A stretch of DNA of 64,000 nucleotides from positions 1 through 64,000 of the forward strand of contig NZ_JARXWB010000019.1 in the NCBI RefSeq assembly GCF_029892425.1. The letters are read 5' to 3'. This document shows, piece after piece, positions 24,094-52,614 of this stretch. The translations under genes and the position numbers were made by a program. Numbering within the stretch: position 1 is the first letter of the stretch; every line of letters starts with the position of its first letter. The notes below the pieces were generated by a model. It searched no databases and was not told where the DNA came from. It saw nothing but the letters and a program-made list of their open reading frames with translations. Source of the stretch: Bradyrhizobium sp. BR13661. Lineage in GTDB: Bacteria; Pseudomonadota; Alphaproteobacteria; Rhizobiales; Xanthobacteraceae.

Positions 24094-24096
24094 TGA

Positions 24097-25185
24097 TTAG
24101 AATCCCTCACGAAGCAGCGTCTGCAACTCGGTCTTGTGAAGCTTACCAAGGCCGAGCGTTTCCAACGTTCGGCCGCCTTGGGCAAAGTCCTCGCCGCAGA
24201 TGGCGCCGCCTATGGCCAGAAAGGCCTTGGCAAGTGGTGTGGCGACCCCCGCCACACCGGCCACGGATACCAGCAGCGATAGCCCCAATCGCAAATCCTC
24301 GCGCATGTAGCGGTGCTCGGTTAGCACGATCCTCTCACGCCAGTCTCCGGAATCGGTCAGTCGGTCATGCGAGCCGCGGCCATACATCCACATCTCACCT
24401 TCCTTGGCGTAATGATGGGCGAGTGGAAAATGCGGTGCGCCATATCCTAGCGCCTCGCGTACGGCGATCCGTTCGGTATCAAGCGCGTCAGTCACGCGTC
24501 GGATCGCGGCCTGCGTACCCTCCTTATGAATATCCCACCGCTCGAAATGCTCGATCGGGCCCGCGTTCATGACAATCAAGGGCGGATGGATGATGCAGCC
24601 CGCATTCATCAGCGCGCCGGACAGTGCATCCCCGCAGGGCTCGATCACATCAGGGAATGCGCGTCCAATCACCTCAAGCGCATGTGGTGCCTGATCGAGG
24701 GGGAATACGCCGACCGGCAGCCGTTTGGCGCGGATCGTAATCGCAACTTCGAAGGGCCCGTGCTTGCGGGTAAGCCACGGCAGCGTCCCCGTTTCGGCAA
24801 AGCTCGCCTTGGCGCGATTGCCAGCATTCCGCGCCGCCTGCGCGAAGATCATTGAGCCAAATGTCGCGGGCGGGAGAAACACGACTTGGCCGTCGCGCAG
24901 GTGCGGTGCAAGCTGGCGAGCGATGTCCTGCTGTGCGAAAGCGGGGGCAGGGCAGAGGATCAACTCGACTCCCTTGACCGCTTCGGCGACGTCAGCGGTC
25001 ACCAGCGCCAACTTCACATCGTGGCGACCATTGTGATCCTTAACGAGAATGCGGGAGCCGGCGGTGCGGTGTGCTTCGACTTGCTCTGCGTCGCGACGCC
25101 AGAGTCGGACCTCATGCCCCGACAGCGCAAAATCGCCTGCGGCCGCGAAAGAGCCGTTTCCTCCCCCAAGTACCGCAATCTTCAA
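24097..25185 (-). CDS. NAD/NADP octopine/nopaline dehydrogenase-family oxidoreductase
   Basis: 362 residues. The N-terminal Rossmann motif is VLGGGNGSFAAAGDFALSGHEVRLW. The C-terminal opine-dehydrogenase domain contains NAGCIIHPPLIVMNAG, with the histidine expected in catalysis. Members join or split amino acids and 2-oxoacids by reductive condensation, but many homologues have unknown substrates. The start overlaps the upstream CoA ligase stop by four bases and the stop lies three bases from the next gene. An opine-type enzyme among CoA-thioester genes suggests a nitrogen-containing substrate; that is an inference. Confidence 0.85.
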   Translation of the reverse strand: MKIAVLGGGNGSFAAAGDFALSGHEVRLWRRDAEQVEAHRTAGSRILVKDHNGRHDVKLALVTADVAEAVKGVELILCPAPAFAQQDIARQLAPHLRDGQVVFLPPATFGSMIFAQAARNAGNRAKASFAETGTLPWLTRKHGPFEVAITIRAKRLPVGVFPLDQAPHALEVIGRAFPDVIEPCGDALSGALMNAGCIIHPPLIVMNAGPIEHFERWDIHKEGTQAAIRRVTDALDTERIAVREALGYGAPHFPLAHHYAKEGEMWMYGRGSHDRLTDSGDWRERIVLTEHRYMREDLRLGLSLLVSVAGVAGVATPLAKAFLAIGGAICGEDFAQGGRTLETLGLGKLHKTELQTLLREGF

Positions 25186-26708
25186 GATGCTTCTCCTTGC
25201 GCGCGCGACTGCGCATCACGTTGCTTCAGCAGGAAGTGCTGGACCTTGCCCAGCGCCGTGCGCGGCATGTCCGCGACGAAGATGATGTCGCGTGGAACCT
25301 TGTAGCGGGCGAGCTGGGCCTGAACGTGCGCCTTCAGCTCGTCCGCTTCGATCCGACAGCTCGATCGCCGGATGACATAGGCAATCGGCACCTCGTCCCA
25401 GCGCGGATCCGGCCGGCCGATGACAGCGCATTCGCTGACGTCGGGATGCTCGAGCAGGACGCGCTCGACTTCCGCGGGGTAAACGTTTTCGCCGCCGGAG
25501 ATGATCATGTTCTTCTTGCGATCGCGGACCCAGAAATAGCCATCGGAGTCGCACAGGCCGATATCGCCGGTGCGATACCAGCCGTCATGCAGCGCCTCGC
25601 GCGTCGCATCTGCGTTGCCCCAATATTCGAAGAACACATTGGGCCCGCGCACCGCGATCTCGCCCGGTGTGCCCGCCGGTACCTCGTTGCCAGCTTGATC
25701 GATCACTTTTGCTTCGCAGCACAGGCCGGCGAGCCCGGTCGATCCCATCCGCGACAGGTCGCCGCCAAGGCGGGTATAGACCGCGATGGGGCAGGTTTCC
25801 GTCGAGCCGTAGACCTGGAGCACGGGCACGCCACGGGCGACAAAGCGATCTATCAGATGCGGCGGCACGATCGTCGAGCCGGTCGCGACGGCCTTTAGCG
25901 ACGAGAGATCGGTCGTGGCCCAGGCGGGGTGCTCACTGACGGCCTGGATGATCGCGGGCACCATGACCGTCAGGGTCGGGCGCTCCCGTTCGATGGCCGC
26001 AAGCGTCGCATCCGGGGTGAAGCGGGCGTGGATCGTGACGGTGGCACCAAGCTGAAGCGCCGCAGTCGTCTGAATGTTGAGCCCGCCGACATGGAAGAAC
26101 GGCAGTACCGTGAGCACGTGATCGTCTGACGTCATGTTGTGCATGTGCTGACTCATGACGCCGTTCCAGAAAAGAGCTTCCTGGCGCAGTACCGCGCCTT
26201 TCGGGCGTCCGGTTGTCCCAGACGTGTAGACGATGAGCAGCGGGCAGGAGAGATCGGTATGGGGATTCTGGCTGCTGCCGTCGCCGTATGCCAACAAGCT
26301 TTCGAATGTCGTGCCGCAGGGCGGTGTGAAGTCGAGGCCGACAACAGACGTCCCCGGCGTGAGCTCAGCAAGAACTTCATCAAAAGCCTGATCGAGCACC
26401 AGCACCTTGGCGCCGGCATCGGTGAGGATGAAGAGCTGCTCGGCGACTGCCAGACGCCAGTTCAGCGGCACCAGCATCGCGCCAAGGCGCGCACAGGCAT
26501 AAAGCAGGACCAGATAGTCCGGACGATTCAGGCTCAGGATAGCGACGCGATCGCCGCGGCCGACATTGAATCCCTGTTTCAAAGCCGTGGCAGTTCGCTT
26601 GATACGCGCGGCGAATGCGGCGTAGCTCAGCCGGTTGCCTTCAAAGGCGATGGCTGTCTTGTCTGGCGCGAACGCCGCGTTGCGATCGATCAGACTGCAG
26701 AGGTCCAC
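25182..26708 (-). CDS. AMP-forming acyl/aryl-CoA ligase
   Basis: 508 residues from a GTG at 26706-26708, just after the acyl-CoA dehydrogenase stop; no ATG is well placed. The adenylate-forming motifs are present: VYTSGTTGRPKGAV (P-loop), YGSTETCP, YRTGDIG and DRKKNMIISGGENVYPAEVE, with the C-terminal lysine in PRTALGKVQHF. It activates a carboxylic acid to its CoA thioester with ATP. It lies mid-operon between an acyl-CoA dehydrogenase and an opine-type dehydrogenase. The sequence does not reveal chain length or ring specificity. Confidence 0.9.
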   Translation of the reverse strand: MDLCSLIDRNAAFAPDKTAIAFEGNRLSYAAFAARIKRTATALKQGFNVGRGDRVAILSLNRPDYLVLLYACARLGAMLVPLNWRLAVAEQLFILTDAGAKVLVLDQAFDEVLAELTPGTSVVGLDFTPPCGTTFESLLAYGDGSSQNPHTDLSCPLLIVYTSGTTGRPKGAVLRQEALFWNGVMSQHMHNMTSDDHVLTVLPFFHVGGLNIQTTAALQLGATVTIHARFTPDATLAAIERERPTLTVMVPAIIQAVSEHPAWATTDLSSLKAVATGSTIVPPHLIDRFVARGVPVLQVYGSTETCPIAVYTRLGGDLSRMGSTGLAGLCCEAKVIDQAGNEVPAGTPGEIAVRGPNVFFEYWGNADATREALHDGWYRTGDIGLCDSDGYFWVRDRKKNMIISGGENVYPAEVERVLLEHPDVSECAVIGRPDPRWDEVPIAYVIRRSSCRIEADELKAHVQAQLARYKVPRDIIFVADMPRTALGKVQHFLLKQRDAQSRAQGEAS

Positions 26709-26710
26709 TG

Positions 26711-28000
26711 TCAGTCGTCCATTTCGCCGGCCTCGTACAGCGCTTCGCGGCCGATCCGGTCGAGGCACAACTCGGCCGTCCAGGGCAACATCAGCGACCC
26801 GCAGCGACTGTCGCGATAGATGCGCTCCAGCGGCAGCGATCGCAGCATGGCCTGACCGCCGCAGGTGCGGATCGCGAGCGCCGCGAGCTCATTGGCACCT
26901 TCCATCACCGAATATTGTGCGGCATAGGCGCGCAGCACCTGCTCCTTGCTCGGATTGGCGCATGCTTCGGTGACGGCCTGAAACCAAATCCCCTTGATTT
27001 GCTCCAGCTTGATCTGCATCTGCGCGACCGCGATCTGCTTGGTCGGATACATCCGCCGCTTGACCGGCGGCATGCCCGGAACCTCGCCACGCAGATAACG
27101 CACCGTGAAATCGTAGGCAGCTTGCGCGAGGCCCATATAGGTGGGTGACAAGGTCAGGAACATGTGCGGCCAGCGCATTGCGGCCTGGAAGTAGACGCCG
27201 CGAGGCATCAGGGCCGAATCATCCGGGACGAACACGTCCTTGAACAGCAGCGTCCGCGAGATCGTGCCGCGCATGCCGAGCGGATCCCAGTCGCCGACGA
27301 CCGAGACACCTTGCGACTTAGCGGGAATGGCGAGGTAAAGTGTGTTGCGGCGCGAGGCCTTCTCGCCTTCCTTGATCTCGGTGCAGAGCACGCCGTAATA
27401 GTCGGCGTGACCGGAGAGCGATGCAAAGATCTTCTTGCCGTTGACGATCCAGCCGCCTTCGACAGGCTTTGCTTCCGTGCCGAAGGCAACGCCGCCCGCA
27501 GCTGCTGCACCCCCCTCGGAGAAAGGTTGCGAGTAGATCGCGCCGTCCTCGACGATACGCTTGTAGTGGACCGCGCGTCGCTTTTCGTGCTCCGCGCGGG
27601 TCGCCGCGTCCATGTTGAGATCGTCAGCCAAGGGCCCCGACCACAGCGTCGAGCAGACATGCATGTTCCAGGTCAGAGCGGTCGCGCCGCAATAGCGGCC
27701 GATCTCGGCAGCCGCCAGAGCATAGGTCTGGTAGTTCGCGCCCAAGCCGCCATGCTTCTTGGGTACAGCGATGCCCAGCAATCCGACACGATGTAGGTCG
27801 CGATAGTTCTCGGTCGGAAATATTGCCTCGCGATCGTACTTGGCTGCGCGGCCCGCGAACACGCTCTGTCCGATTTCCCGCGCCTGCGCGATGATGCCGG
27901 CCTGCTCATCGGTCAGGCGAAACGCCACGGGATCGAAGATTGGCGCATCCAGCGCGACATTGCCGGTCGCAGTGATCGTCTCGCTGACTTGCATGGTCAT
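26711..28000 (-). CDS. Acyl-CoA dehydrogenase
   Basis: 429 residues from ATG 27998-28000; a longer frame upstream overlaps the hydrolase gene and is rejected. The family features are GLLGIAVPKKHGGLGANYQTYALAAAEIGRYCGATALTW, YSQPFSEGGAAAAGGVAFGTEA and the C-terminal YSVMEGANELAALAIRTCGGQAMLRSLPLERIYRDSR, which binds FAD. It introduces a double bond next to a CoA thioester. It is the second gene of the minus-strand operon, seven bases after the hydrolase. The partner electron-transfer flavoprotein is not in this window. Confidence 0.9.
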   Translation of the reverse strand: MTMQVSETITATGNVALDAPIFDPVAFRLTDEQAGIIAQAREIGQSVFAGRAAKYDREAIFPTENYRDLHRVGLLGIAVPKKHGGLGANYQTYALAAAEIGRYCGATALTWNMHVCSTLWSGPLADDLNMDAATRAEHEKRRAVHYKRIVEDGAIYSQPFSEGGAAAAGGVAFGTEAKPVEGGWIVNGKKIFASLSGHADYYGVLCTEIKEGEKASRRNTLYLAIPAKSQGVSVVGDWDPLGMRGTISRTLLFKDVFVPDDSALMPRGVYFQAAMRWPHMFLTLSPTYMGLAQAAYDFTVRYLRGEVPGMPPVKRRMYPTKQIAVAQMQIKLEQIKGIWFQAVTEACANPSKEQVLRAYAAQYSVMEGANELAALAIRTCGGQAMLRSLPLERIYRDSRCGSLMLPWTAELCLDRIGREALYEAGEMDD

Positions 28001-28007
28001 TGCGTAG

Positions 28008-28826
28008 TCACCCGTGTTTTGCAACGAAGGGATCGACGAAGTTGGCGAGCGCCTTGTCGAAGGCACCGGGACGTTCAAGGTTGGCGAGATGACCGACACC
28101 GGGGAGTTCGACATATTCGGCCGCGGGAATGTAGGTCGCGGTCTTTGCCATCATCGGCGCCGGCGCATTGTTATCCCTGGAACCGGACAACAGCAGCGTC
28201 GGCACCGCGATATCCTTGAGCGTTTTGCGCTGATCGAAGCCGATCAATGCCAGCATCATGGCGCGATAGCTCGCTTCAGGCACGCTTGCCATGCACTCAC
28301 GCGCGAGCTCCATGCCCTTCGGATCCGGATCGTCGCCGACGAGCTCCTTCACGAGGGAAGGTGCCAGCGACTTCATCGTCTCGCCGCGATCGAGCGGGCC
28401 CAGCCGCGCAGAGATAAACGACTTCTGCCAATCGCCATCAGCCTTGCCGAATGCCGGGCTGGTCTGCGCAAGCACGACCGCGCGCGCCAGTTTCGGCGAT
28501 TGCACCAGCCACTTCTGGACGATCATACCGCCAATGGAGTGGCCGACCAGAATGGGGTTCGCCGCACCGAGTTGATCGGTGAACTGCAGGAGTGCATCAG
28601 CCAGGGCAGCGATACTGACGTTGGGTAAGGGCGCTGATCCTCCATAGCCCGGCATATCCCATGCAATGGCGCGAAAACGATTGCCGAATGTAGCGAGCTG
28701 CTGCCGCCAGGCTCTTGCCGCGCCACCGATGCCATGCAGGAAGATCAGGGGTATTGCGTCCGGGTCGCCCGCGGTTTCATAGGCGAAGCGACCGTCCCCT
28801 GTTATCATTGAAGCAGGTTGCGACAC
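28008..28826 (-). CDS. Alpha/beta-hydrolase
   Basis: 272 residues starting with GTG at 28824-28826. The nucleophile elbow GHSIGG places Ser97. Asp218 (GSRDNNAP) and His246 (GVGHLANLE) complete the triad, and HGIGG at 31-35 supplies the oxyanion hole. Family members include ring-cleavage product hydrolases, 3-oxoadipate enol-lactonases and the N-formylmaleamate deformylase NicD. A NicD-like role would fit the NicX-like gene nearby, but the sequence alone does not decide. It leads the minus-strand operon and faces the SDR/hydratase pair across a shared promoter region. Confidence 0.88.
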   Translation of the reverse strand: MSQPASMITGDGRFAYETAGDPDAIPLIFLHGIGGAARAWRQQLATFGNRFRAIAWDMPGYGGSAPLPNVSIAALADALLQFTDQLGAANPILVGHSIGGMIVQKWLVQSPKLARAVVLAQTSPAFGKADGDWQKSFISARLGPLDRGETMKSLAPSLVKELVGDDPDPKGMELARECMASVPEASYRAMMLALIGFDQRKTLKDIAVPTLLLSGSRDNNAPAPMMAKTATYIPAAEYVELPGVGHLANLERPGAFDKALANFVDPFVAKHG

Positions 28827-28883: not shown

Positions 28884-28908
28884 ATAATTTTATACTTAAA
28901 GCAATTTT
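28884..28908. promoter_or_regulatory. Putative MarR operator, site 1
   Basis: On the minus strand it reads TTGCTTTAAGTATAAAAT, matching the shared core TTnAAGnnTAAAAT. It lies 58 bases upstream of the hydrolase operon start, in the divergent promoter region. Confidence 0.6.
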
Positions 28909-28965
28909 CGGGCCGGTCCCCTTCGCGACGGCGTTCTCGACCTCGATCGGCGCTTTCGTTGCAAA

Positions 28966-28987
28966 AGCTTGAAGGTTAAAATATATC
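28966..28987. promoter_or_regulatory. Putative MarR operator, site 2
   Basis: GCTTGAAGGTTAAAATATAT on the plus strand carries the core TTGAAGnnTAAAAT. It lies about 36 bases upstream of the SDR start, so it would overlap that promoter. Confidence 0.55.
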
Positions 28988-29022
28988 GGAAGAACGATCA
29001 GCAGATCTAAAGGAGCCAGCGC

Positions 29023-29784
29023 ATGTCCGCACTGTCGCATTCGCCGCACGCGCTGGTGACCGGTGGGGGGCGCGGCATCGGCCGCGCGATCGCGGCGGCT
29101 CTCGTCAGTGGCGGTGCCACAGTGACGGTGCTCGGCCGGAACGCCGCTGTTCTCGACGAAGCGGTCAACTCAGGTGCCGCGCATTTTGCGGCTGTCGCCG
29201 ACGTTTCGGACGAAGCCGCTCTCAAGACCGCCATTGCAGCGGCGCATGCACGAAAGCCGATCGACATCCTGATCGCCAACGCCGGCAGCGCCGAATCCGC
29301 GCCTTTTGCGAAGTCGGACAGTGCTCTCTTTGCGCGTATGATGGACGTCAATTTCATGGGCGTGGTGCACGCCGTTCGCGCAGTGCTGCCGGGGATGAAG
29401 GATCGGCCCTATGGCCGCATTGTTGCAGTTGCATCGACAGCCGGACTCAAGGGCTATGCCTACGTGAGCGCGTACGCGGCCGCAAAGCACGCTGTGGTCG
29501 GTCTCGTGCGTTCGCTCGCACTGGAGATGGCCGCCAGCAATGTGACCGTGAATGCGATATGCCCCGGCTTCACCGACACCGATCTGGTGGCGGGTAGTAT
29601 CGACAACATCATGAAGAAGACCGGGCGAACCCGTGAGCAGGCGATCGCCGAGCTCGCGAAGCACAATCCGCAAGGGCGCCTCATCACGCCGCAGGAAGTG
29701 GCGAATGCTGTGCTGTGGCTATGCAGCAAGGATGCTGGTGCGATCACGGGGCAGGCGATCGCGGTTGCCGGTGGCGAAATCTGA
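29023..29784 (+). CDS. SDR-family oxidoreductase
   Basis: 253 residues of the classical short-chain dehydrogenase type. The nucleotide-binding glycine motif TGGGRGIG lies at residues 13-20, NAG at 86-88, and the catalytic Ser138, Tyr151 and Lys155 (YAAAK) are in place. CPGFTDT lies further on. A clear AAAGGAG site precedes the ATG. It probably oxidises a 3-hydroxyacyl-CoA in the aryl-CoA pathway. The enoyl-CoA hydratase gene follows 43 bases later in the same operon. Confidence 0.92.
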   Translation: MSALSHSPHALVTGGGRGIGRAIAAALVSGGATVTVLGRNAAVLDEAVNSGAAHFAAVADVSDEAALKTAIAAAHARKPIDILIANAGSAESAPFAKSDSALFARMMDVNFMGVVHAVRAVLPGMKDRPYGRIVAVASTAGLKGYAYVSAYAAAKHAVVGLVRSLALEMAASNVTVNAICPGFTDTDLVAGSIDNIMKKTGRTREQAIAELAKHNPQGRLITPQEVANAVLWLCSKDAGAITGQAIAVAGGEI

Positions 29785-29827
29785 CGTGGATGGCGAAAGC
29801 GCGGAATAAGGAAGCTAAGGAGATCGC

Positions 29828-30664
29828 ATGAGTAGACCAGCCAATCCCGTCACCTTGCCGCTCGCGGACTATTCGCCGCAACATTTCCTCCTGGCCGTGG
29901 TCGACGGTGTTGCTACCGTGACGCTCAACCGTCCGGAACGGAAGAATCCGCTGACGTTCGAGAGCTACCGCGAGCTGACTGATTTCTTCCGCGCCTGCGC
30001 GTTTGACGATGCGGTCAAAGCTATCGTCGTCACCGGCGCCGGCGGTAATTTTTCGTCCGGCGGCGACGTGTTCGAGATCATCGGGCCGCTCGTGAAGATG
30101 GACACCAAGGGTCTGACGGCGTTCACGCGGATGACCGGCGATCTCGTCAAGGCGATGCGGGCCTGTCCGCAGCCGATCGTGGCGGCGGTCGAGGGCATTT
30201 GTGCCGGCGCCGGCGCGATCATTGCCATGGCATCTGACATGCGGCTCGCGGCAAGCGGCGCCAAGGTGGCGTTCCTGTTCAACAAGGTCGGTCTTGGCGG
30301 CTGTGACATGGGCGCCTGCGCGATCCTGCCGCGGATCATCGGCCAGTCCCGCGCATCCGAGTTGCTTTACACTGGCCGGTTCATGACAGCGGAGGAGGGC
30401 GAGCGCTGGGGCTTCTTCAGCCGGATCGTTACGCCGGAGCAGGTGCTGCCCCAGGCGCAATTGCTGGCCAAGCAGGTCGCAGAGGGGCCGACTTTCGGCA
30501 ACACCATGACCAAGCGGATGCTGGCCATGGAATGGGCGATGTCGGTGGAAGAGGCGATCGAAGCGGAGGCCGTTGCCCAGGCACTGTGTATGACCACGGC
30601 GGATTTTGAGCGCGCCTTCCACGCCTTCGCCAATAAGGTCAAGCCGGTCTTCAGGGGCGACTGA
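29828..30664 (+). CDS. Enoyl-CoA hydratase/isomerase-family protein
   Basis: 278 residues of the crotonase fold. The oxyanion-hole segments GNFSSGGD (73-80) and GICAGAGA (123-130) are intact. The two glutamates used by classical hydratases appear to be missing: the region aligned to the first reads [11 protein letters not shown], and that of the second [22 protein letters not shown], with Asp160 nearby. So this is a family member with altered chemistry, possibly acting on a cyclic aryl-derived CoA ester. It is co-transcribed with the SDR and precedes the bifunctional monooxygenase/reductase. Confidence 0.85.
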
Positions 30665-30709
30665 GCGGCGGCTCTCGGCTGCCACTGCGCAAACGAGGAC
30701 TTGCCAGAA

Positions 30710-30734
30710 ATTATTTTAGGCTTAAAATAGTTTT
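30710..30734. promoter_or_regulatory. Putative MarR operator, site 3
   Basis: On the minus strand it reads CTATTTTAAGCCTAAAATAA, one of the two strongest matches in the set. It lies 29-53 bases upstream of the bifunctional hydroxylase/reductase start. Confidence 0.7.
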
Positions 30735-30762
30735 CATGGCCGGGTGAATTGGCGAGGCTCCC

Positions 30763-33114
30763 ATGAAAGTCGCGATCATCGGTGGTGGACCCGCGGGTCT
30801 CTACGCAGCAATCCTGCTCAAGAAGCAGCAACCGCGCGCCGACATCAGCGTGTATGAGCGCAACCGCGCCGATGATACGTTTGGATTCGGCGTGGTGTTC
30901 TCGGACGCTACGCTCGACAACTTTGAAAAGCACGACCTGCCGAGCTATCGCCGCATCACCCAGGAATTCGCCTATTGGGACGACATCGCCGTGCATTTTC
31001 GCGGCACGGTGCACCGGGTCGGCGGCAACGGCTTTTGCGGTTGCTCGCGGCAAAAACTGCTGCTGATCCTGCAGGAGCGGGCGCGCGAGCTTGACGTCAG
31101 CCTGCATTTCGAAGTCGATATCGACGACGAATCTCGTTTCGCCGATGCAGATCTCATTTTGCTCGCAGATGGCGTCAATAGCCGCTTCAGAGAGAAGCAC
31201 GTCGATCACTTCCAGCCCGAAGTTGACCTCCGCACCAACAAGTTTGCCTGGATGGGCTCAACCAAGCCCCTCGACGCCTTCACCTTCGTCTTCCAGGAGA
31301 CCGAGTGGGGGCCGTTCATCGCCCACGCCTATCAGTACGAGGCCGGGCACTCGACCTGGATTTTCGAGACCGATCCGGAGACGTTCGAGCGTGCGGGGCT
31401 GACGGGGCTGGATGAGACCCAGTCCGCCGCGCGGATGGCTGAGATATTTGGCGGATTCCTCGGCGGGCACAAGCTGCTGACCAACCGTTCGATGTGGCGC
31501 AACTTCCCGATGATTCGCAGCAAGCGCTGGGTCAAGGACAATATGGTCCTGCTCGGCGACGCCAAGGCGAGCGCGCATTTTTCGATTGGCTCGGGCACCA
31601 AGCTTGCGATGGAAGATGCGATTGCGCTGGCCGAAGCCATGGCGAAGGCGCCCGACATCAGGACCGCGCTGGATCTTTATGAGCACGGCCGACGCGAGGA
31701 GGTCGAGAAGACGCAGCACGCAGCCGACGTCTCTCTGGTCTGGTTCGAGCATGTCGATCGCTTCTGGGATTTTGATCCGGTGCAGTTCGCCTTTGGCGTG
31801 ATGACGCGCTCGAAAGCAATCACCTACGATAATCTAAAACTTCGCGCGCCCGATTTCGTCGCCGAGGTCGAGAGGTCATTCGCCAACCAAGTGCGCAGCA
31901 ACGGCTTCGACGTCAGCACCGACAAGCCGATGGTGCCGCTGTTCCAGCCGTTTCGTCTGCGTGAGATGGAGGTCGCCAACCGCGCCGTCATGTCGCCGAT
32001 GTGCATGTACTCGGCGAAAGAGGGCGTCCCTGGTGACTTCCACCTCGTCCATTACGGTTCGCGCGCGATCGGCGGCGCCGGCTTGATCTTCACGGAGATG
32101 ACCTGTGTCAGTCGCGACGCGCGCATCACGCCCGGCTGCGCCGGTCTGTGGAATGACGAGCAAGAAGCGTCCTGGCGTCGCATCGTCGATTTCGTGCACG
32201 GCAACTCGGCTGCAAAAATCTGCCTGCAACTCGGGCATGCCGGCCGCAAGGGCGCGACCAAGCTGATGTGGGATGGCATCGACCGCCCGCTCGACGAAGG
32301 CGGCTGGGACGTGGTCTCGGCATCGCCGCTGCCTTATTTCCCGGATAGCCGGATACCGCGCGAGCTCGACCGCGCCGGGATGAACGCGGTGAGGGATTCC
32401 TTCGTCGCGGCAGCAGAGCGCGGCGAGCGCTGTGGCTTCGACATGCTCGAGCTGCATTGCGCACACGGTTACCTCCTTGCGAGCTTCATTTCACCACTGA
32501 CGAACACCCGCACGGACGAGTATGGCGGCTCGCTTGAGAACCGGATGCGGTTTCCGCTCGAGGTTTTTGAGGCACTGCGGGCGGCATGGCCGAAGCACAA
32601 GCCGATGTCGGTGCGTATTTCCGCCACCGACTGGGCCGATGGCGGCATCACCGGTGACGATGCGGTAGCGATCGCACGCGCGTTCGCCGAGGCTGGCGTC
32701 GATCTGGTCGATGTCTCGACGGGGCAGACTGTGCGCGACGGTCAGCCGGTCTATGGTCGCATGTTCCAGACGCCGTTCTCGGACCAGGTCCGCAACGAGG
32801 CCCGGGTGGCCACCATGTGCGTCGGTAACATCACGACGGCGGACCAGGCCAACACCATTCTGGCCGCTGGCCGGGCCGATCTCGTCGCGCTGGGGCGCCC
32901 GCATCTGGTCGATCCCTTCTTCACCATGAAGGCGGCGGCCTGGTATGGGGCGAATGACGCGTTCTGCCCGCCGCAATATTTGCCCGGCAAAGACCAGATT
33001 TTCCGCAATAGCGTGCGCGATCGGCAGGATCTCGAGGAGCTGAGAATTAAGGCTAAGCCCAAGACCCGGGCCGAGCTCAAGGCGGAGGCTACAAAGCCGC
33101 TTGCGGCCGAGTGA
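30763..33114 (+). CDS. Bifunctional aminobenzoyl-CoA / salicylyl-CoA monooxygenase-reductase
   Basis: 783 residues in two parts. The N-terminal half (about 1-385) is an FAD hydroxylase with [12 protein letters not shown] at residues 5-16 and [25 protein letters not shown]. The C-terminal half (about 390-760) is an Old Yellow Enzyme-type FMN reductase, starting [27 protein letters not shown], with [14 protein letters not shown] and [12 protein letters not shown]. This fusion is known from 2-aminobenzoyl-CoA monooxygenase/reductase, which hydroxylates and then reduces the ring, and from annotated salicylyl-CoA 5-hydroxylases. The nearby aminobenzoate-CoA-ligase-like gene favours the first. A putative MarR operator overlaps its promoter. 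Confidence 0.9.
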
Positions 33115-33166
33115 CCGACCGTGCGACGTTAACCCATTGCCTGTGTATTGAGTGGAGTTGAGGGCG

Positions 33167-34417
33167 ATGAAGGCGATTATCGTCGGCGGCGGTATCGGTG
33201 GTCTCACCACGGCTTTGATGCTGCGGGCCCGCGGCATTGGCTGCGAGATCTTCGAGCAGTCCGATACGATCCGCGAACTCGGCGTCGGCATCAACACGCT
33301 GCCGCATGCCATGCGTGAGCTCGCCAGCCTCGGCCTGCTGCAAAAGCTCGACGACGTCGCGATCCGCACCGACCAGCTCTACTACCTCAACCGGCATGGC
33401 CAGGAGGTCTGGCGCGAGGCCCGTGGCGTGGACGCTGGCTATGATGTGCCACAATTCTCGATCCACCGCGGCCGCCTCCAGGGCGTGATCCATCGCGCCG
33501 TCGAGGAGCGGCTTGGGACGGAAGCGATTCACACCGGTTGTAGGCTCGGCGCGTTTACCCAGGACGAGGGCGGTGTCACGGCCTATTTCTTCGATCGTGC
33601 CGGCTCGCACATCCACACCGCGCGCGGCGACATCCTGATCGGCGCCGACGGCATCCATTCGCGGGTTCGCGACACGCTGTTCCCGAATGAAGGGCCGCCG
33701 TGCTGGAACGGTCTGATGCTGTGGCGCGGTGCGCGCGATTGGCCGCTGTTCCTCACCGGCAAATCGATGATTGTTGCCGGTGGTCTCAACGCCAAGGTCG
33801 TAGTCTATCCGATCGCTGAGGGTTCGAGCCCGGCGAGCCGCCTCACCAATTGGGCAGTGCTGGTGAAGGTCGGCGAAGGCAATGCTCCGCCGCCGCGGAA
33901 AGAGGACTGGTCACGGCCGGGCCGGCGCGAGGAGCTAATGCCGCATGTCGCACGTTTCTCGGTGCCATACATCGATGTGAAGAGCCTGATCTCCGCAACG
34001 CCCGAATTCTACGAATATCCGACCTGCGATCGCGATCCCTTGCCCTATTGGTCGTCGGGACGCGTCACCCTGCTCGGCGATGCCGCGCATCCGATGTATC
34101 CGGTCGGTTCCAACGGCGCATCGCAGGCGATCCTGGACGCGCGCTGCCTTGCCGACGCGCTGGTGCGGGCCGAGCATCCGCGTCAGGCGCTGATGGAATA
34201 CGAGAAGAAGCGCCTGCCGATGACCGCGGACATCGTCCGCTCCAACCGCCGTGGCGGCCCCGAGGGCGTCATTGATGCCGTCGAGCAACTCGCGCCCGAC
34301 GGCTTCGACAATGTCGACAACGTGCTGAGCTATTCCCAGCGCGAGGCGATCGTGCGTGGCTATGCCACCAAGGCCGGCTTCGCCGCGGTCCCGGGACTCG
34401 CGGCGGTTCGGGCCTGA
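33167..34417 (+). CDS. FAD-dependent aromatic-ring monooxygenase
   Basis: 416 residues of the group A flavoprotein hydroxylases (UbiH/salicylate hydroxylase type). The dinucleotide motif is IIVGGGIGGLTTAL, the DG-type motif is DILIGADGIHSRVRD, and the GD motif is VTLLGDAAHPMYPVGSNGASQAILDA. ATG 33167 follows a GAGTTGAGGG-type site; a GTG five codons earlier is possible. It lies 52 bases after the bifunctional enzyme and is probably in the same operon. It may hydroxylate a free aromatic acid that enters the pathway, but the substrate is not evident. Confidence 0.9.
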   Translation: MKAIIVGGGIGGLTTALMLRARGIGCEIFEQSDTIRELGVGINTLPHAMRELASLGLLQKLDDVAIRTDQLYYLNRHGQEVWREARGVDAGYDVPQFSIHRGRLQGVIHRAVEERLGTEAIHTGCRLGAFTQDEGGVTAYFFDRAGSHIHTARGDILIGADGIHSRVRDTLFPNEGPPCWNGLMLWRGARDWPLFLTGKSMIVAGGLNAKVVVYPIAEGSSPASRLTNWAVLVKVGEGNAPPPRKEDWSRPGRREELMPHVARFSVPYIDVKSLISATPEFYEYPTCDRDPLPYWSSGRVTLLGDAAHPMYPVGSNGASQAILDARCLADALVRAEHPRQALMEYEKKRLPMTADIVRSNRRGGPEGVIDAVEQLAPDGFDNVDNVLSYSQREAIVRGYATKAGFAAVPGLAAVRA

Positions 34418-34426
34418 CGCGAGCCG

Positions 34427-34885
34427 CTAGCCGGCGCCTGGGGGCGGCGGCAGGAAGTGAATGTTGAACTCGGCGGCCATCGCCACGACGTCCTCCGGTT
34501 TCTGTTCCTTCATGTTGTGAAGGCCCCAGAACAGGTCGAACAGTTTTTTGGTCGGCGACACCCAGAACAGCACTTTTGCGGTCTGATCCGACTTGTTGAA
34601 GATGCCGTGCGGCACGCCCATGCCAAGCCGGATCAGATCGCCGGGCGTTGCCTGCGCGTCCGAATTGCCGAGCACGAAGTCGAGCTTGCCCTCCAGCATG
34701 TAGAGATACTCGTCCTGATCCGGATGAATATGCGGCGGCACGAACGTGCCCGGCGGCAGCGTGGCGTGCCAGGAGAAGCTGTTTTCGCTATTGCTCTTCG
34801 GCACATAGGTCTGGCCGAGGATGTTCCAGGAGATGCCCTGGATCCCCTCATTGGCCCGTGTGATGCCGGTGATTTCGCTCTTCAT
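34427..34885 (-). CDS. Cupin-domain protein
   Basis: 152 residues with one conserved cupin. The first motif is PPHIHPDQDEYLYMLEG (metal-binding histidines and glutamate) and the second is in PGDLIRLGMGVPHGIFNKS. The start follows GGAGGACTGCA. Small cupins in aromatic pathways can be ring-cleaving dioxygenases, isomerases or sensors. This one keeps two HxH-type histidines, a glutamate and a later histidine, so metal binding is plausible. It lies 29 bases downstream of the solute-binding gene on the same strand. Confidence 0.85.
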   Translation of the reverse strand: MKSEITGITRANEGIQGISWNILGQTYVPKSNSENSFSWHATLPPGTFVPPHIHPDQDEYLYMLEGKLDFVLGNSDAQATPGDLIRLGMGVPHGIFNKSDQTAKVLFWVSPTKKLFDLFWGLHNMKEQKPEDVVAMAAEFNIHFLPPPPGAG

Positions 34886-34914
34886 TGCAGTCCTCCCTAA
34901 CGCGACGCGCGGCC

Positions 34915-36090
34915 TTAGTTCGCCGCCTTGCAGTCCTTGGCATAGCGGTCGCCGTAATTCTCGAAAACCTTTTGAACGATCTCGGTCTGGAACTTGCCGT
35001 CCGGACGCTTGGCGACCTTGGTCAGATAAAAATCCTGGATCGGATAGCCGTTGGTGTTGAATTTGAACGAACCGCGCAGCGAGGTAAAATCTGCCTTCTT
35101 CAAGGCAGCCCCGACGGCATCCTTGTTGGAAAGGTCGCCCTTCACACCCTTGATTGTGCTGTCGATCAGCATCGCAGCGTCATACGCCTGCATGGCATAG
35201 GTGCCGGGCACGCTGTTATAGGCGGCCTCATAGGCGGCGACGAATTTCTTGTTCTGGGGATTGTCGAGATTGGGCGCCCAGTTGGCACCGCCGAACATGC
35301 CGACGGCCGCGTCCTGTTGCGCCGGCAGGGTCGATTCATCCACCGTGAAAGCCGAAAGCACCGGAATGCCGTCGGTGAGGCCGGCCTGCTTGTACTGCTT
35401 GACGAGGTTGACGCCGAGGCCGCCCGGCATGAACGTGAAGAGAGCATCGGGCTTCTGCGAAGAGATCTTGGACAGCTCCGGCTGGAAGTCCAGCGTGTTG
35501 AGCGGCATGTAGGATTCTTCAACAATCTCGCCCTTGTAGTCGAGCTTGAAGCCGGCGACCGAATCCTTGCCGGCCTGATAGTTCGGCACCATCAGATACA
35601 TCCGCTTGTAGCCGCGATCCTGCGCGACCTTGCCGAGGATCTCGTGCACCTGATCGTTCTGATAGGACGTCACATAGAAGAACGGATTGCAGTCCTTGCC
35701 GGCAAAGGTCGACGGACCGGCATTCGGACTGATCAGGAAGGTCTTTGATTCCGTGACCGGCCGGTGGATCGCTTGGAGGATGTTGGAGAAGATCGGGCCG
35801 ACCACGAAGTCGACCTTGTCGCGCTCAAGCAGGCCCTTGACCTTGGTCACCGCTGCATCAGGCTTCAATTCGTCGTCGACTACGACGACCTCGACGTCGC
35901 GCCCGCCCATCTTGTTGCCGAGATCCCTCACCGCGAGCGCAAAGCCGTCGCGGACCTGTTGGCCAAGCGCGGCGGCGGGGCCCGACAGGGTCACGATCAC
36001 CCCTAGCTTGATCTTCTCCTGGGCGAGGGCAGGGCTCATCGCGGTGCCAAGCAGCAAGGCGGCCGCAGCCAAAGTCATTTGCGTCTTCAT
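34915..36090 (-). CDS. LivJ/LivK-type ABC transporter substrate-binding protein
   Basis: 391 residues. A signal peptide (MKTQMTLAAAALLLGTAMSPALA-Q) is followed by the Peripla_BP_6 domain (IKLGVIVTLSGPAAALGQQVRDGFALAVRDLG). The family binds branched-chain amino acids and, in these bacteria, often aromatic acids such as benzoate or coumarate derivatives. No Liv-type permeases or ATPases are in the window, so it must use a transporter encoded elsewhere. It is divergent from the MarR gene, and two putative MarR operators lie between them, so the compound it binds may be the pathway's starting acid. Confidence 0.92.
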   Translation of the reverse strand: MKTQMTLAAAALLLGTAMSPALAQEKIKLGVIVTLSGPAAALGQQVRDGFALAVRDLGNKMGGRDVEVVVVDDELKPDAAVTKVKGLLERDKVDFVVGPIFSNILQAIHRPVTESKTFLISPNAGPSTFAGKDCNPFFYVTSYQNDQVHEILGKVAQDRGYKRMYLMVPNYQAGKDSVAGFKLDYKGEIVEESYMPLNTLDFQPELSKISSQKPDALFTFMPGGLGVNLVKQYKQAGLTDGIPVLSAFTVDESTLPAQQDAAVGMFGGANWAPNLDNPQNKKFVAAYEAAYNSVPGTYAMQAYDAAMLIDSTIKGVKGDLSNKDAVGAALKKADFTSLRGSFKFNTNGYPIQDFYLTKVAKRPDGKFQTEIVQKVFENYGDRYAKDCKAAN

Positions 36091-36228
36091 GATCGATCCC
36101 CCGAGACATCAGGGCTTGCGTTGCAAGCCGCGTACTTCGATCCAAGCTTATGCCGATGATGGCTGCCGCGGCAAGCAAGCTCGAGGCCTCACCATCTCGC
36201 GGCCAGCACCGCATGCAAGCGGCGCGCC

Positions 36229-36251
36229 AATTATTTGAAGCCTAAAGAAAT
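36229..36251. promoter_or_regulatory. Putative MarR operator, site 4
   Basis: AATTATTTGAAGCCTAAAGA carries the core TTGAAGCCTAAA. It is in the gap between the solute-binding gene and the marR gene and could serve both. Confidence 0.65.
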
Positions 36252-36296
36252 CCGCATGTGGTCGATTGTTGCAGCTTTGGGCTTGCGGCCAGCGCC

Positions 36297-36321
36297 GATT
36301 TATTTGAAGCTCAAAATGTTG
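36297..36321. promoter_or_regulatory. Putative MarR operator, site 5
   Basis: TTTATTTGAAGCTCAAAATG carries the core TTGAAGCnnAAAAT. It lies about 48 bases upstream of the chosen marR start and suggests autoregulation. It also argues against the longer marR frame beginning at 36258. Confidence 0.65.
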
Positions 36322-36368
36322 GGGAATCCGAACCGGCGCAGGTGCCGGACGCGAGTGATTGCATCGAG

Positions 36369-36860
36369 ATGCTCGATTCCGAGACCAAGGCCACGGAAAC
36401 TCCGGAGGACCACGCCGACGAGCTGCGGCTGTGGTTGCGCCTGCTCACCTGCACGACCCTGATCGAGGGTGAGGTCCGCGGCCGGTTGCGGGAGCGCTTC
36501 GACGTCACGCTGCCCCGTTTCGATCTGATGGCACAGCTCGACAAGGCGCCCGATGGCATGACGCTGTCGGATGTTTCCAAGCGCATGATGGTGTCCAACG
36601 GCAATGTCACCGGCCTCGTCGAGCGCCTCGTGGAATCCGGTCATCTCGACCGTCGCACCTCGGAAACCGACCGCCGCGTCCAGGTGATCCGCCTCACAAA
36701 GCTCGGTCGCGCCGAATTTCGTCGGATGGCCTCGGAACACGAGACCTGGATCGCAGACCTCTTCGCCGATTTGACGCCGAAAGATGTGCGCGAACTGATG
36801 CGGCTTCTCGCCAAGACCAAGGCGTCGGCGCAGAAATCGGCCGCGCGCCGCCGGCCCTAA
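36369..36860 (+). CDS. MarR-family transcriptional regulator
   Basis: 163 residues from ATG 36369. The winged-helix core is LRERFDVTLPRFDLMAQLDKAPDGMTLSDVSKRMMVSNGNVTGLVERLVESGHLDRRTSETDRRVQVIRLT, with the wing arginines typical of MarR. Members are usually repressors released by an aromatic acid or its CoA ester; CouR and BadR of Rhodopseudomonas are comparable. The repeated motif TTnAAGCCTAAAAT upstream of this gene and of five other promoter positions in the cluster is the likely binding site. The CoA ligase gene follows in the same direction. Confidence 0.92.
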   Translation: MLDSETKATETPEDHADELRLWLRLLTCTTLIEGEVRGRLRERFDVTLPRFDLMAQLDKAPDGMTLSDVSKRMMVSNGNVTGLVERLVESGHLDRRTSETDRRVQVIRLTKLGRAEFRRMASEHETWIADLFADLTPKDVRELMRLLAKTKASAQKSAARRRP

Positions 36861-36937
36861 GTCCGCGGGGCGGCCAGCCCCCGAATCCCTTCTGCCGCAG
36901 GAAAATGCATGGGATGCCCAAAATCCGCTATTGCGCC

Positions 36938-36963
36938 AAATTGTTTTAAGCCTAAAATGTTTT
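36938..36963. promoter_or_regulatory. Putative MarR operator, site 6
   Basis: ATTGTTTTAAGCCTAAAATG matches site 3 over its whole core. It lies 46-71 bases upstream of the CoA ligase start. Confidence 0.7.
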
Positions 36964-37008: not shown

Positions 37009-38700
37009 ATGGCCAACGCCGCCAAGGTTCAAGTGACGGGCTCGTGTGACGGCAACGCCGTGACCGCCCATGTTGACACGTTTGCGCGGCAACATTTGCC
37101 GCCGCCTGATCTCTGGCCGGAGTTCATCTTCACGCGGCCGGAGTTGCTCTATCCTCCGAGGTTGAACTGCGTCAGCTATTTCCTGGATCGCTGGGTCGAG
37201 CAGGGGCACGGTGATGCGCCTTGCGTCATCAGTCCCACAGTCAGCTACACCTATCGCGGCCTGCAGGCGCTCGTGAATCGCATCGCCAATGTGCTGGTCG
37301 GCAAGCTTGGTCTCGTCACCGGCGGACGCGTGCTGCTGCGTTCCGCCAACAGCCCGATGATGGTTGCGGCCTATCTCGCTGTGATCAAGGCCGGCGGCAT
37401 TTGCGTGGCGACGATGCCGCTGTTGCGCGCCAAGGAGTTGTCCTACCCGATCCAAAAAGCGGAGATCACGCTCGCGCTGTGCGACGGAAAACTCTCCGAC
37501 GAGATGGAAAAGGTGAAACTGGCTGCGCCAGGTCTCAAGCATGTGGTCTATTGGGGCAGCGGCGCGCCCGACTCGCTTGAGGCGCTGATTGCTGATGCGA
37601 GCCCTGAGTTCGAGGCGGTCGATACGGCTTCGGACGACATCTGCCTGATCGCCTTCACGTCGGGCACGACAGGCGATCCCAAGGGCACCATGCATTTCCA
37701 CCGGGACATGCTGGCTGTGTGTGACGGTTATGCGCGCAACATCTTGCGGGCCGAGCAGAAGGATCGTTTCGTCGGCTCGGCGCCGCTTGCCTTCACTTTT
37801 GGCTTTGGCGGCGTGCTATTCCCCATGCACATCGGTGCCTCTTTCGTCGTGCTGGAGAAGACGACGCCCGATGACATCCTGACGGCAATTGAACAATACA
37901 AGGCCACGGTCTGCTTTACGGCACCGACCGCGTATCGCGCGATGATCGGCAAGCTTCCGGGCCGCGACATCTCCTCGCTGCGTAAGTGCGTCTCCGCCGG
38001 CGAGACGCTACCCAAGCCGACATTTGACGCCTGGCTCAAGGCCACGGGCATCAAGCTGATGGACGGTATTGGTTCGACCGAGCTGCTGCACATCTTCATC
38101 AGTGCGACCGAGGACGAAATCCGCCCCGGCGCGACCGGCAAGCCCGTACCGGGTTATGAAGCCAAGATCGTTGACGACGACGGCAACGATGTGCCGGCTG
38201 GCACGATGGGGAAGCTCGCGGTGCGTGGGCCGACCGGCTGTCGCTATCTCGCCGACGAGCGGCAGCGGAAATACGTCCAGAACGGCTGGAACATCACCGG
38301 CGACACCTACCTGATGGATAGCGACGGCTACTTCTGGTACCAGTCGCGATCCGACGACATGATCGTGTCATCCGGGTACAATATCGCGGGTACCGATGTT
38401 GAAGCAGCGCTGCTCACGCATCCGTCGGTCGCCGAGTGCGGCGTCGTCGGCGCGCCGGACGAGGCACGCGGGATGATCGTGAAGGCCTTCGTCATTGCCG
38501 CGCCCGGTGTGACGCCGGATGCCAAGCTCGCAGCCGAGCTGCAGGAGCACGTCAAACGCGAGATCGCGCCGTACAAATATCCGCGCGCGATCGAGTTCGT
38601 GACGCAGCTGCCGAAGACCGAGACCGGAAAATTGAAACGTTTCGCCTTGCGGCAATTGGCGCAGGCGGCGGCGACGTCCTCGGGCGTCGCTGCAGAATGA
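37009..38700 (+). CDS. 2-aminobenzoate-CoA ligase-like (benzoate-CoA ligase family)
   Basis: 563 residues from ATG 37009, which follows AAAGGAG. The adenylate-forming motifs are IAFTSGTTGDPKGTMHFH, GIGSTELLHIFISA, NITGDTYLMDSDGYFWYQSRSDDMIVSSGYNIAGTDVE and the C-terminal PKTETGKLKRF with the catalytic lysine. The overall sequence is of the benzoate/2-aminobenzoate-CoA ligase group. Together with the aminobenzoyl-CoA monooxygenase-reductase-like gene it points to anthranilate as the substrate, but benzoate or salicylate are not excluded. It is followed 15 bases later by a RidA-like gene. Confidence 0.87.
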   Translation: MANAAKVQVTGSCDGNAVTAHVDTFARQHLPPPDLWPEFIFTRPELLYPPRLNCVSYFLDRWVEQGHGDAPCVISPTVSYTYRGLQALVNRIANVLVGKLGLVTGGRVLLRSANSPMMVAAYLAVIKAGGICVATMPLLRAKELSYPIQKAEITLALCDGKLSDEMEKVKLAAPGLKHVVYWGSGAPDSLEALIADASPEFEAVDTASDDICLIAFTSGTTGDPKGTMHFHRDMLAVCDGYARNILRAEQKDRFVGSAPLAFTFGFGGVLFPMHIGASFVVLEKTTPDDILTAIEQYKATVCFTAPTAYRAMIGKLPGRDISSLRKCVSAGETLPKPTFDAWLKATGIKLMDGIGSTELLHIFISATEDEIRPGATGKPVPGYEAKIVDDDGNDVPAGTMGKLAVRGPTGCRYLADERQRKYVQNGWNITGDTYLMDSDGYFWYQSRSDDMIVSSGYNIAGTDVEAALLTHPSVAECGVVGAPDEARGMIVKAFVIAAPGVTPDAKLAAELQEHVKREIAPYKYPRAIEFVTQLPKTETGKLKRFALRQLAQAAATSSGVAAE

Positions 38701-38715
38701 GATGAGGATCAAGAA

Positions 38716-39177
38716 TTGTCCGTGACGACGCCGAAAGGCCCCCAGCTTGCGGTGCTGCCGACCGACGATAACGAGACCCGCGCGAAGGCGCAGGTGCTCC
38801 AGCCCTCCGGCTGGCCGATGCCGAAGGGCTATGCCAACGGCATTGCCGCCGAGGGACGCATTGTTGTGACTGGTGGCGTGATCGGCTGGGATGCCGAGGA
38901 GCGCCTTGCGGACGGCTTTGTCGCACAGGTTCGCCAAACCCTGAGCAACATCGCCGAAATTCTTGGAGAGGCCGGTGCGCGGCCCGAGCATCTGGTGCGC
39001 CTAACTTGGTATGTCGTCGATATGGAAGAATACCTGACGAACCTGAAGGAACTCGGCAAGATCTACCGTGCTGTCTTTGGCGCGCATTATCCAGCGATGG
39101 CGCTGGTTCAGGTGGTGCGTCTCGTCGAGAAAGCGGCGCGCGTCGAGATCGAGGCCACCGCGATCATTCCACGCTGA
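38716..39177 (+). CDS. RidA-family protein (enamine/imine deaminase-like)
   Basis: 153 residues. The start is TTG at 38716, with GAGGA ten bases upstream; a GTG at 38722 is an alternative. The domain covers GWPMPKGYANGIAAEGRIVVTGGVIGWD to RVEIEATAII, where the arginine before VEIEA is the conserved RidA substrate-binding residue. RidA proteins hydrolyse reactive enamines/imines to ketones and ammonia. Ring reduction of aminobenzoyl-CoA leaves an enamine-type amino group, so a dedicated RidA is consistent with that pathway. It is co-transcribed with the ligase. Confidence 0.9.
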   Translation: MSVTTPKGPQLAVLPTDDNETRAKAQVLQPSGWPMPKGYANGIAAEGRIVVTGGVIGWDAEERLADGFVAQVRQTLSNIAEILGEAGARPEHLVRLTWYVVDMEEYLTNLKELGKIYRAVFGAHYPAMALVQVVRLVEKAARVEIEATAIIPR

Positions 39178-52557: not shown

Positions 52558-52614
52558 GGAAATTGGCCCCGTCGAACCCTCGACGAAGAATAGGGCGGGA
52601 TACAGGCGCCAAAT

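Follow-up and report, generated by a model that had tools for sequence, protein, structure and literature searches.

Which protein reads the six copies of one short motif that stand in the promoter regions of a cluster of aryl-coenzyme A (CoA) pathway genes in Bradyrhizobium sp. BR13661? The cluster lies in the stretch of DNA analyzed here, the 64-kb window formed by positions 1 to 64,000 of contig NZ_JARXWB010000019.1, from a genome of 8.94 Mb in 91 contigs. We consider it likely that the six sites, S1 to S6, are operators read by a dimer of the MarR-family regulator encoded at 36369-36860 within the cluster. The reader very probably belongs to this MarR subfamily, and the protein most likely acts as a repressor. 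The coordinates of the sites, given in one common 16-base register from direct reading of the sequence, and of the genes are collected in Table 1.

Six sites in the cluster and a seventh at a MarR paralogue

An initial annotation of this DNA had proposed six sites sharing the 14-mer TTnAAGnnTAAAAT. All six sites of one motif exist, beginning 1 to 5 bases from where that annotation had placed them, and they occupy the promoter regions it had named: S1 and S2 lie in the divergent region between the alpha/beta hydrolase and short-chain dehydrogenase/reductase (SDR) genes, S3 before the gene for a fusion protein of the 2-aminobenzoyl-CoA monooxygenase/reductase (ABMR) type, S4 and S5 between the divergent genes for a substrate-binding protein (SBP) and MarR, and S6 before the CoA ligase gene. 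S3 and S6 are, as claimed, identical over 15 bases. The 14-mer held up in part; it is exact at four of the six sites, against an average of 0.00 exact matches over 100 dinucleotide-shuffled sequences, while S5 carries one mismatch and S4 two. It is part of an imperfect 16-bp palindrome near ATTTTAAGCYTAAAAT, which describes the sites better; the palindromy had escaped the initial annotation. A symmetric scoring matrix built from the six sites, and never retrained for relatives, gives S1 to S6 scores of 20.7 to 27.6, and the next best 16-mer in the window scores 13.7. The spacing within the two divergent regions is 80 bp for S1-S2 and 69 bp for S4-S5.

In the whole host genome, the degenerate pattern RYTTKAAGNNYAAARW has seven exact matches, compared with one for the reversed pattern. 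The pattern was derived from the six sites, so the seventh match alone is independent. This match (C50:21849-21864) is flanked by an acyl-CoA dehydrogenase gene and a second MarR gene (C50:22141-22530), scores 26.9, and is nearly identical to S3. The genome encodes five further homologues of the cluster MarR, and the second MarR, 51% identical to it over residues 11-140, is the nearest of them. With six of the seven matches in the cluster, the motif is rarer outside it, as the initial annotation had expected of a regulon centered there. When one mismatch is allowed, the 14-base pattern is unspecific genome-wide (40 matches, with 17 in the backwards control), and exact or matrix-scored matches were used in its place. 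No argument from a single genome for the MarR subfamily as the predicted reader is stronger than the position of this sole extra match in the promoter region of the nearest paralogue.

The cluster MarR has a winged-helix domain that scores above the curated cut-offs of PF12802 (46.3 bits; cut-off, 27) and PF01047 (38.7 bits; cut-off, 24.6). Its nearest solved structure by sequence is 3boq (E = 2.4e-21, 79.8 bits, residues 13-153), in which the recognition-helix stretch VTNGNVSGLV is similar to that of this MarR. We favor a start at ATG 36369 over GTG 36258, because the MarR domain spans residues 82-141 in the longer reading and because residue 13 of the shorter reading aligns with residue 12 of 3boq. 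S5 is intergenic only with the ATG start, and marR is then preceded by the palindromic sites S4 and S5 in its own promoter region. A single-sequence structure prediction of the protein had a mean pLDDT of 55.4, which is too poor to use. The claim that marR is the only regulator gene of the cluster holds for the ORFs that we scanned with family profiles (NCBIfam/TIGRFAM and Pfam), which are part of the ORFs of the window; among these, the nearest other helix-turn-helix (HTH) regulator genes are two of Crp type, at 52563 and 53725. That claim overlooks the paralogue, which carries the same motif elsewhere in the genome.

Sites and MarR proteins in close and distant relatives

The close set comprised 80 loci with a MarR 91 to 98% identical to that of the window, 78 of them titled Bradyrhizobium, one Frankia, and one Hyphomicrobiales. 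Counting sites that score at least 15, we found six sites in 65 loci, five in 10, four in 1, three in 3, and one in 1, where some loci are cut by contig ends; 75 of the 80 thus keep five or six sites. By position, a site stands before the CoA ligase gene in all 79 loci with the region (S6 class) and before ABMR in 64 of 65 loci with the region (S3 class), one locus (L031) retaining just an ABMR remnant. One or two sites precede the hydrolase gene in 75 of 75 loci with the region (S1 class). Within 160 bp upstream, the SDR gene has one or two sites in 76 of 77 loci (S2 class), and marR has two in 77 of 80 (S4/S5 class). Column conservation is 0.93 to 0.99 in the sites versus 0.66 to 0.95 in the 20-bp flanks, values slightly biased in favor of the sites by their selection by score, although few loci lacked one; the gap is narrow at the farther marR site (0.96 versus 0.95 on one side). 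The record titled Frankia sp. RB7 (L037), whose cluster encodes a MarR 98% identical to that of the window, is perhaps mislabelled or contaminated.

A wider search of the genus found ATTTTAAGCNTAAAAT with at most one mismatch in 36 of 40 genomes, with 101 strand matches (palindromes being counted twice) versus 7 for the backwards pattern. A perfect palindrome is also present at L251, a further ABMR-SDR-hydratase locus of the genus. Two sites scoring 27.5, at position 4562 of L252 and position 5092 of L256, occur in the window's genus at loci without a match to the searched cluster proteins; these may mark possible further members of the regulon.

Farther out, a MarR homologue with an E value of at most 1e-20 is present in 146 of 296 family genomes, and 71 of 398 phylum genomes have an ABMR homologue with an E value of at most 1e-150. 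The distant set consisted of 40 plus 40 loci, of which 75 were counted for sites (L113, L147 to L149, and L197 were left out); three of the 75 (L115, L116, and L118) belong to the window's genus. These 75 loci hold 94 sites scoring at least 18, compared with 1 in the reversed sequences. The pooled distant sites sharpen the motif to ATTTTAAGCTTAAAAT, and ten of them are perfect palindromes. The motif is kept together with the MarR subfamily in the sampled relatives at the level of genus, family, order, class, and, in part, phylum, and the close and distant comparisons together support the regulon proposed in the initial annotation.

The ABMR promoters of the distant set allowed the motif to be compared with the type of MarR encoded nearby. 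We scored 300 bp upstream of ABMR in 63 of the 80 loci with a cut-off of 15; in the other 17, the ABMR alignment did not start within the first 25 residues or less than 100 bp was available upstream. Where the local MarR has a recognition helix other than the GGN type, 47 of 48 promoters have a site, compared with one of six where the helix is of the GGN type. A site is also present in seven of the nine promoters with no MarR in the fetched stretch, a class that includes L166, where MarR lies just outside, and L188, a 6.3-kb contig. All seven genomes encode a MarR 50 to 57% identical at another place, which in G458 is just beyond the fetched stretch; six of these seven MarR loci carry a site scoring at least 14, L218 having none. 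The six GGN MarRs, with VTGGN in place of VSNGN or similar, form one clade (support, 100/97) with one change on a tree that left out fragments of fewer than 120 residues and two of the three matches in L169. Their ABMR promoters score 5.5, 9.6, 9.9, 10.9, 14.7, and 16.1, and three of them still exceed their shuffles (see below), so the operator of this clade looks altered rather than erased. This joint change of helix and motif fits a motif read by the MarR recognition helix.

By eye, the ABMR promoters of four GGN-helix loci (L186, L191, L196, and L198) share CTAAACTAT or a near form of it, which in L191 is CTAAACTAA; in some GGN promoters this element sits between TTGACA and a -10-like box. 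It is possibly the altered operator of the clade. In L164, the ABMR promoter lacks the motif but has, some 50 bp upstream of the gene, another strong palindrome, ATATGTGCTATAACACATAT, which is perhaps the operator of another regulator.

The predicted reader, its proposed inducer, and rival explanations

We propose that each MarR dimer would sit on one palindrome, covering or abutting the promoter and repressing it, and that marR would be autoregulated through S4 and S5. Substrate that is taken up would be activated by the CoA ligase, and a metabolite of the pathway, with 2-aminobenzoyl-CoA or one of its products as the likeliest, would release MarR and switch on the units, including marR itself. 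CouR (Rhodococcus and Rhodopseudomonas) and FerC (Sphingobium) are MarR repressors that are released by hydroxycinnamoyl-CoA (PMC5487221, PMC4737184). Because CouR and FerC respond to CoA thioesters, a CoA thioester of the pathway, in line with the aryl-CoA named in the initial annotation, is our best guess for the inducer, one that we favor by analogy only and somewhat cautiously. The likeness extends to the position of the MarR gene beside a CoA-ligase catabolic cluster, although the CouR entry 5CYV is not among the 39 PDB sequences that match this MarR at an E value of 0.001 or better.

Several observations weigh against this reading of the sites. For HcaR, a functionally related MarR, the ligand seems to be the free acid (PMC5487221, in extract). 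L170 has a local non-GGN MarR (helix VTEGN) and no motif at its ABMR promoter. The two genomes with neither a local MarR nor the motif at ABMR (G377 and G514) also have MarR homologues, 44 to 45% identical, so the presence of a MarR alone does not discriminate; in G377 it is the MarR locus, rather than ABMR, that has the motif (25.7). In the GGN clade, three of the six promoters beat their own shuffles, which preserve base composition only, at a p value of 0.01 or less, so that the loss of the motif is partial, and the change of helix and motif, being confined to one clade, amounts to one event. Finally, a -35-like box stands in register with the TAAAAT of the motif in just 16 of 70 promoters.

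This last count also lends something to the idea of an activating or dual role of MarR at some sites, as does the presence of two sites in each divergent region at the spacings given above. We regard such a role as unlikely, since S2, S3, S5, and S6 end 34 to 51 bp before the start codons, a frequent position of repressor sites, and since most characterized MarR regulators are repressors (PMC9613470, in extract). The motif could, further, belong to an unrelated regulator or be a conserved promoter element, as its AT-rich composition and its -10-like TAAAAT end might suggest; as a test of the promoter-element idea, the register of TAAAAT with a -35 box proved weak, at the count just given. Its palindromy, the location of the seventh of seven matches in 8.94 Mb at a MarR paralogue, its presence at MarR loci away from ABMR, and its weakening in the GGN clade all make this very improbable, and the nearest other HTH genes among the scanned ORFs are the two of Crp type.

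A more serious rival to the cluster MarR is its own paralogue, C50:22141-22530, as the main reader, or a competition of both MarRs for the same sites. The near copy of S3 in the paralogue's promoter speaks for it, and in 12 of the 13 genomes without the cluster ABMR, described below, the orthologue of the paralogue stands beside an ABMR with the same motif. The recognition helices of the two proteins differ, however (RMMVSNGNVTGLVERLV versus RLMVSAGNLTPIVDRLV), and in many genomes from other genera with a single MarR match at an E value of 1e-20 or better, the clusters have retained the motif equally well; we therefore consider it possible but rather doubtful that the paralogue takes this part. 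The initial proposal that the cluster MarR reads the sites thus gains from the conservation of the sites, the site at the paralogue's promoter, and the weakening in the GGN clade, and needs amending in that this MarR may not be the sole reader.

Another candidate was an auxin (iad/iac) degradation locus with a MarR that senses indole-3-acetic acid. According to extracts of PMC9613470, auxin MarR repressors likewise lie in catabolic loci able to feed anthranilate, an iad-like locus is present in Bradyrhizobium with its MarR crystallized, and iad loci lead, as a section heading has it, to anthranilic acid. Among the families found in the scanned ORFs, there is no Rieske-type oxygenase, and none of the hits belongs to the IadD/IadE or IacC/IacD oxygenase families. 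The entry 7kfo, which we take to be the Variovorax indole-3-acetic acid regulator, heads a nine-entry MarR set only distantly related to this MarR (E = 7.1e-06); if 7kfo is indeed an auxin MarR, these regulators are distant from it in sequence. We rejected the auxin locus, which has hardly any probability left, on gene content and sequence distance.

The pathway, the second locus, and a possible exchange of ABMR

The genes around the sites (Table 1) fit an aerobic 2-aminobenzoyl-CoA pathway, and the cluster is probably that of 2-aminobenzoate. The 2-aminobenzoyl-CoA monooxygenase/reductase is one polypeptide with a monooxygenase part and an old-yellow-enzyme part, and the fusion encoded here has these features of the abm enzyme. 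The enzyme has subunits of about 85 kDa in a 170-kDa homodimer, and the abm cluster of Azoarcus evansii contains, as here, a CoA ligase, the monooxygenase/reductase, and beta-oxidation-type enzymes (PMC4539516, in extract). Extra genes in the present cluster, compared with abm, encode the alpha/beta hydrolase, the SDR, a second FAD monooxygenase, and a cupin. The abm cluster described by Schuehle et al. in 2001 reportedly also holds a substrate-binding protein, a MarR-like regulator, and a "translation inhibitor" (RidA family). The substrate may also be salicylate or another aryl acid: the NCBIfam name of the fusion (NF006101) is bifunctional salicylyl-CoA 5-hydroxylase/oxidoreductase, and the ligase reaches only the "benzoate-CoA ligase family", its substrate perhaps being 2-aminobenzoate from the gene context. 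The genes at 23101..26768 are the probable rest of the hydrolase operon, because they are on the same strand in adjoining or overlapping ORFs. The SDR and enoyl-CoA hydratase genes follow S2, the fusion and the second FAD monooxygenase genes follow S3, and the ligase and RidA genes follow S6. Unlike the abm cluster of A. evansii, this one has several site-bearing promoter regions and a predicted operator, and among the listed matches in the open-licence literature we recognized, from titles and abstract starts, no description of this operator.

Table 1. Predicted operator sites and genes of the cluster, and the second locus of the host genome
Feature	Position	Strand	Sequence, family, or remark
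S1	28887..28902	-	GCTTTAAGTATAAAAT; operator-like 16-bp site before hydrolase operon
S2	28967..28982	+	GCTTGAAGGTTAAAAT; operator-like, 40 bp before SDR gene
S3	30713..30728	-	ATTTTAAGCCTAAAAT; operator-like, 34 bp before ABMR; top score of the six
S4	36233..36248	+	ATTTGAAGCCTAAAGA; operator-like, between divergent SBP and marR genes
S5	36302..36317	+	ATTTGAAGCTCAAAAT; operator-like, 51 bp before marR (ATG 36369)
S6	36943..36958	+	GTTTTAAGCCTAAAAT; operator-like, 50 bp before aryl-CoA ligase gene
Acyl-CoA ligase, octopine-dehydrogenase-like protein, 3-hydroxyacyl-CoA dehydrogenase (PRK08269)	23101..26768	-	Family searches
Acyl-CoA dehydrogenase family	26711..28000	-	PF02771, PF02770, PF00441
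Alpha/beta hydrolase	28008..28808	-	PF12697, PF00561; first gene behind S1, start codon ATG 28808
SDR-family dehydrogenase	29023..29784	+	PF00106, 181.9 bits
Enoyl-CoA hydratase family (PRK08258)	29828..30664	+	NF006107, 465.7 bits (cut-off 330)
ABMR-type fusion, FAD monooxygenase and old-yellow-enzyme reductase	30763..33114	+	783 aa; NF006101, 1132.8 bits (cut-off 1078); PF01494, PF00724
FAD-dependent monooxygenase (PRK07538 subfamily)	33152..34417	+	NF005720, 579.5 bits (cut-off 400); second FAD monooxygenase, after ABMR
Cupin-domain protein	34427..34885	-	PF07883
ABC-type substrate-binding protein (SBP)	34915..36090	-	PF13458, 258 bits
MarR-family regulator	36369..36860	+	163 aa; PF12802, PF01047; nearest structure 3boq; proposed reader
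Aryl-CoA ligase	37009..38700	+	TIGR02262, 389.2 bits (cut-off 375.25); next gene 3' of marR
RidA/L-PSP family protein	38716..39177	+	PF01042, 75.5 bits; 3' of ligase
Second locus, host genome (L147)	C50:14000-30000		MarR paralogue, acyl-CoA dehydrogenase, CoA ligase, substrate-binding protein, PF04199 cyclase, SDR/ChsH2-like fusion, thiolase

The second locus of the host genome keeps the operator and a MarR, without an ABMR there. PF04199, the family of its cyclase, includes kynurenine formamidase and isatin hydrolase, which could yield anthranilate. Because the paralogue at this locus has nearly the same operator, the cluster and the second locus probably form one regulon.

In 13 Bradyrhizobium loci (L031, L048, L049, L054, L060, L065, L069, L071, L076, L081, L095, L098, and L101), there is no ABMR between the hydratase and FAD monooxygenase genes (the ECH-FMO gap). 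The gaps vary in length from 129 to 462 bp, which suggests repeated loss of ABMR; by eye, the 3' end of ABMR is still present in 12 of the 13, and L031 has a 65-residue remnant. At the S3 position, a strong site is found in L031 (23.0) and L098 (25.4) and a weak one in L069 (14.3), and the remaining ten have none scoring at least 12. Each of the 13 genomes has an ABMR of a second type elsewhere, 51 to 52% identical in 12 of them and, in the L060 genome, split into two parts (49% and 59%). One strong site (24.7 to 26.9) precedes ABMR at each of the 13 second loci, where ABMR is followed by acyl-CoA dehydrogenase and RidA genes; ABMR and the gene for the MarR paralogue are divergent at 12 of these loci, and the fetched stretch of L203 shows no paralogue. 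Among 41 genomes that keep the cluster ABMR, 39 lack the second type and 2 (those of L070 and L078) have both, where 37 of the 41 were searched at 1e-150, a threshold at which a split or partial second copy could be missed. This either/or distribution over 54 Bradyrhizobium-type genomes gives a p value of 9.5e-11 by Fisher's exact test with relatedness ignored, in a count that excludes 24 of the 80 close loci plus L072, L079, and L083.

A plausible reading of this distribution, though one that we stop short of favoring, is that one operator joins two distant loci under two diverged, cross-reading MarRs and that the key enzyme, ABMR, moves within the regulon. The regulatory logic of a MarR, a palindrome, and autoregulation is ordinary, and what is new is the predicted operator sequence. 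It provides a testable operator for a regulator of an aerobic aryl-CoA pathway, which could serve in searches for further regulon members and in biosensor construction, and it connects two loci that would be kept separate by annotation. That the two ABMR types almost exclude each other under one operator offers a compact system for studying pathway-enzyme replacement under shared control. If the reading is true, the shared operator would let either copy of ABMR serve the pathway, so that the enzyme may be exchanged without rewiring of its control.

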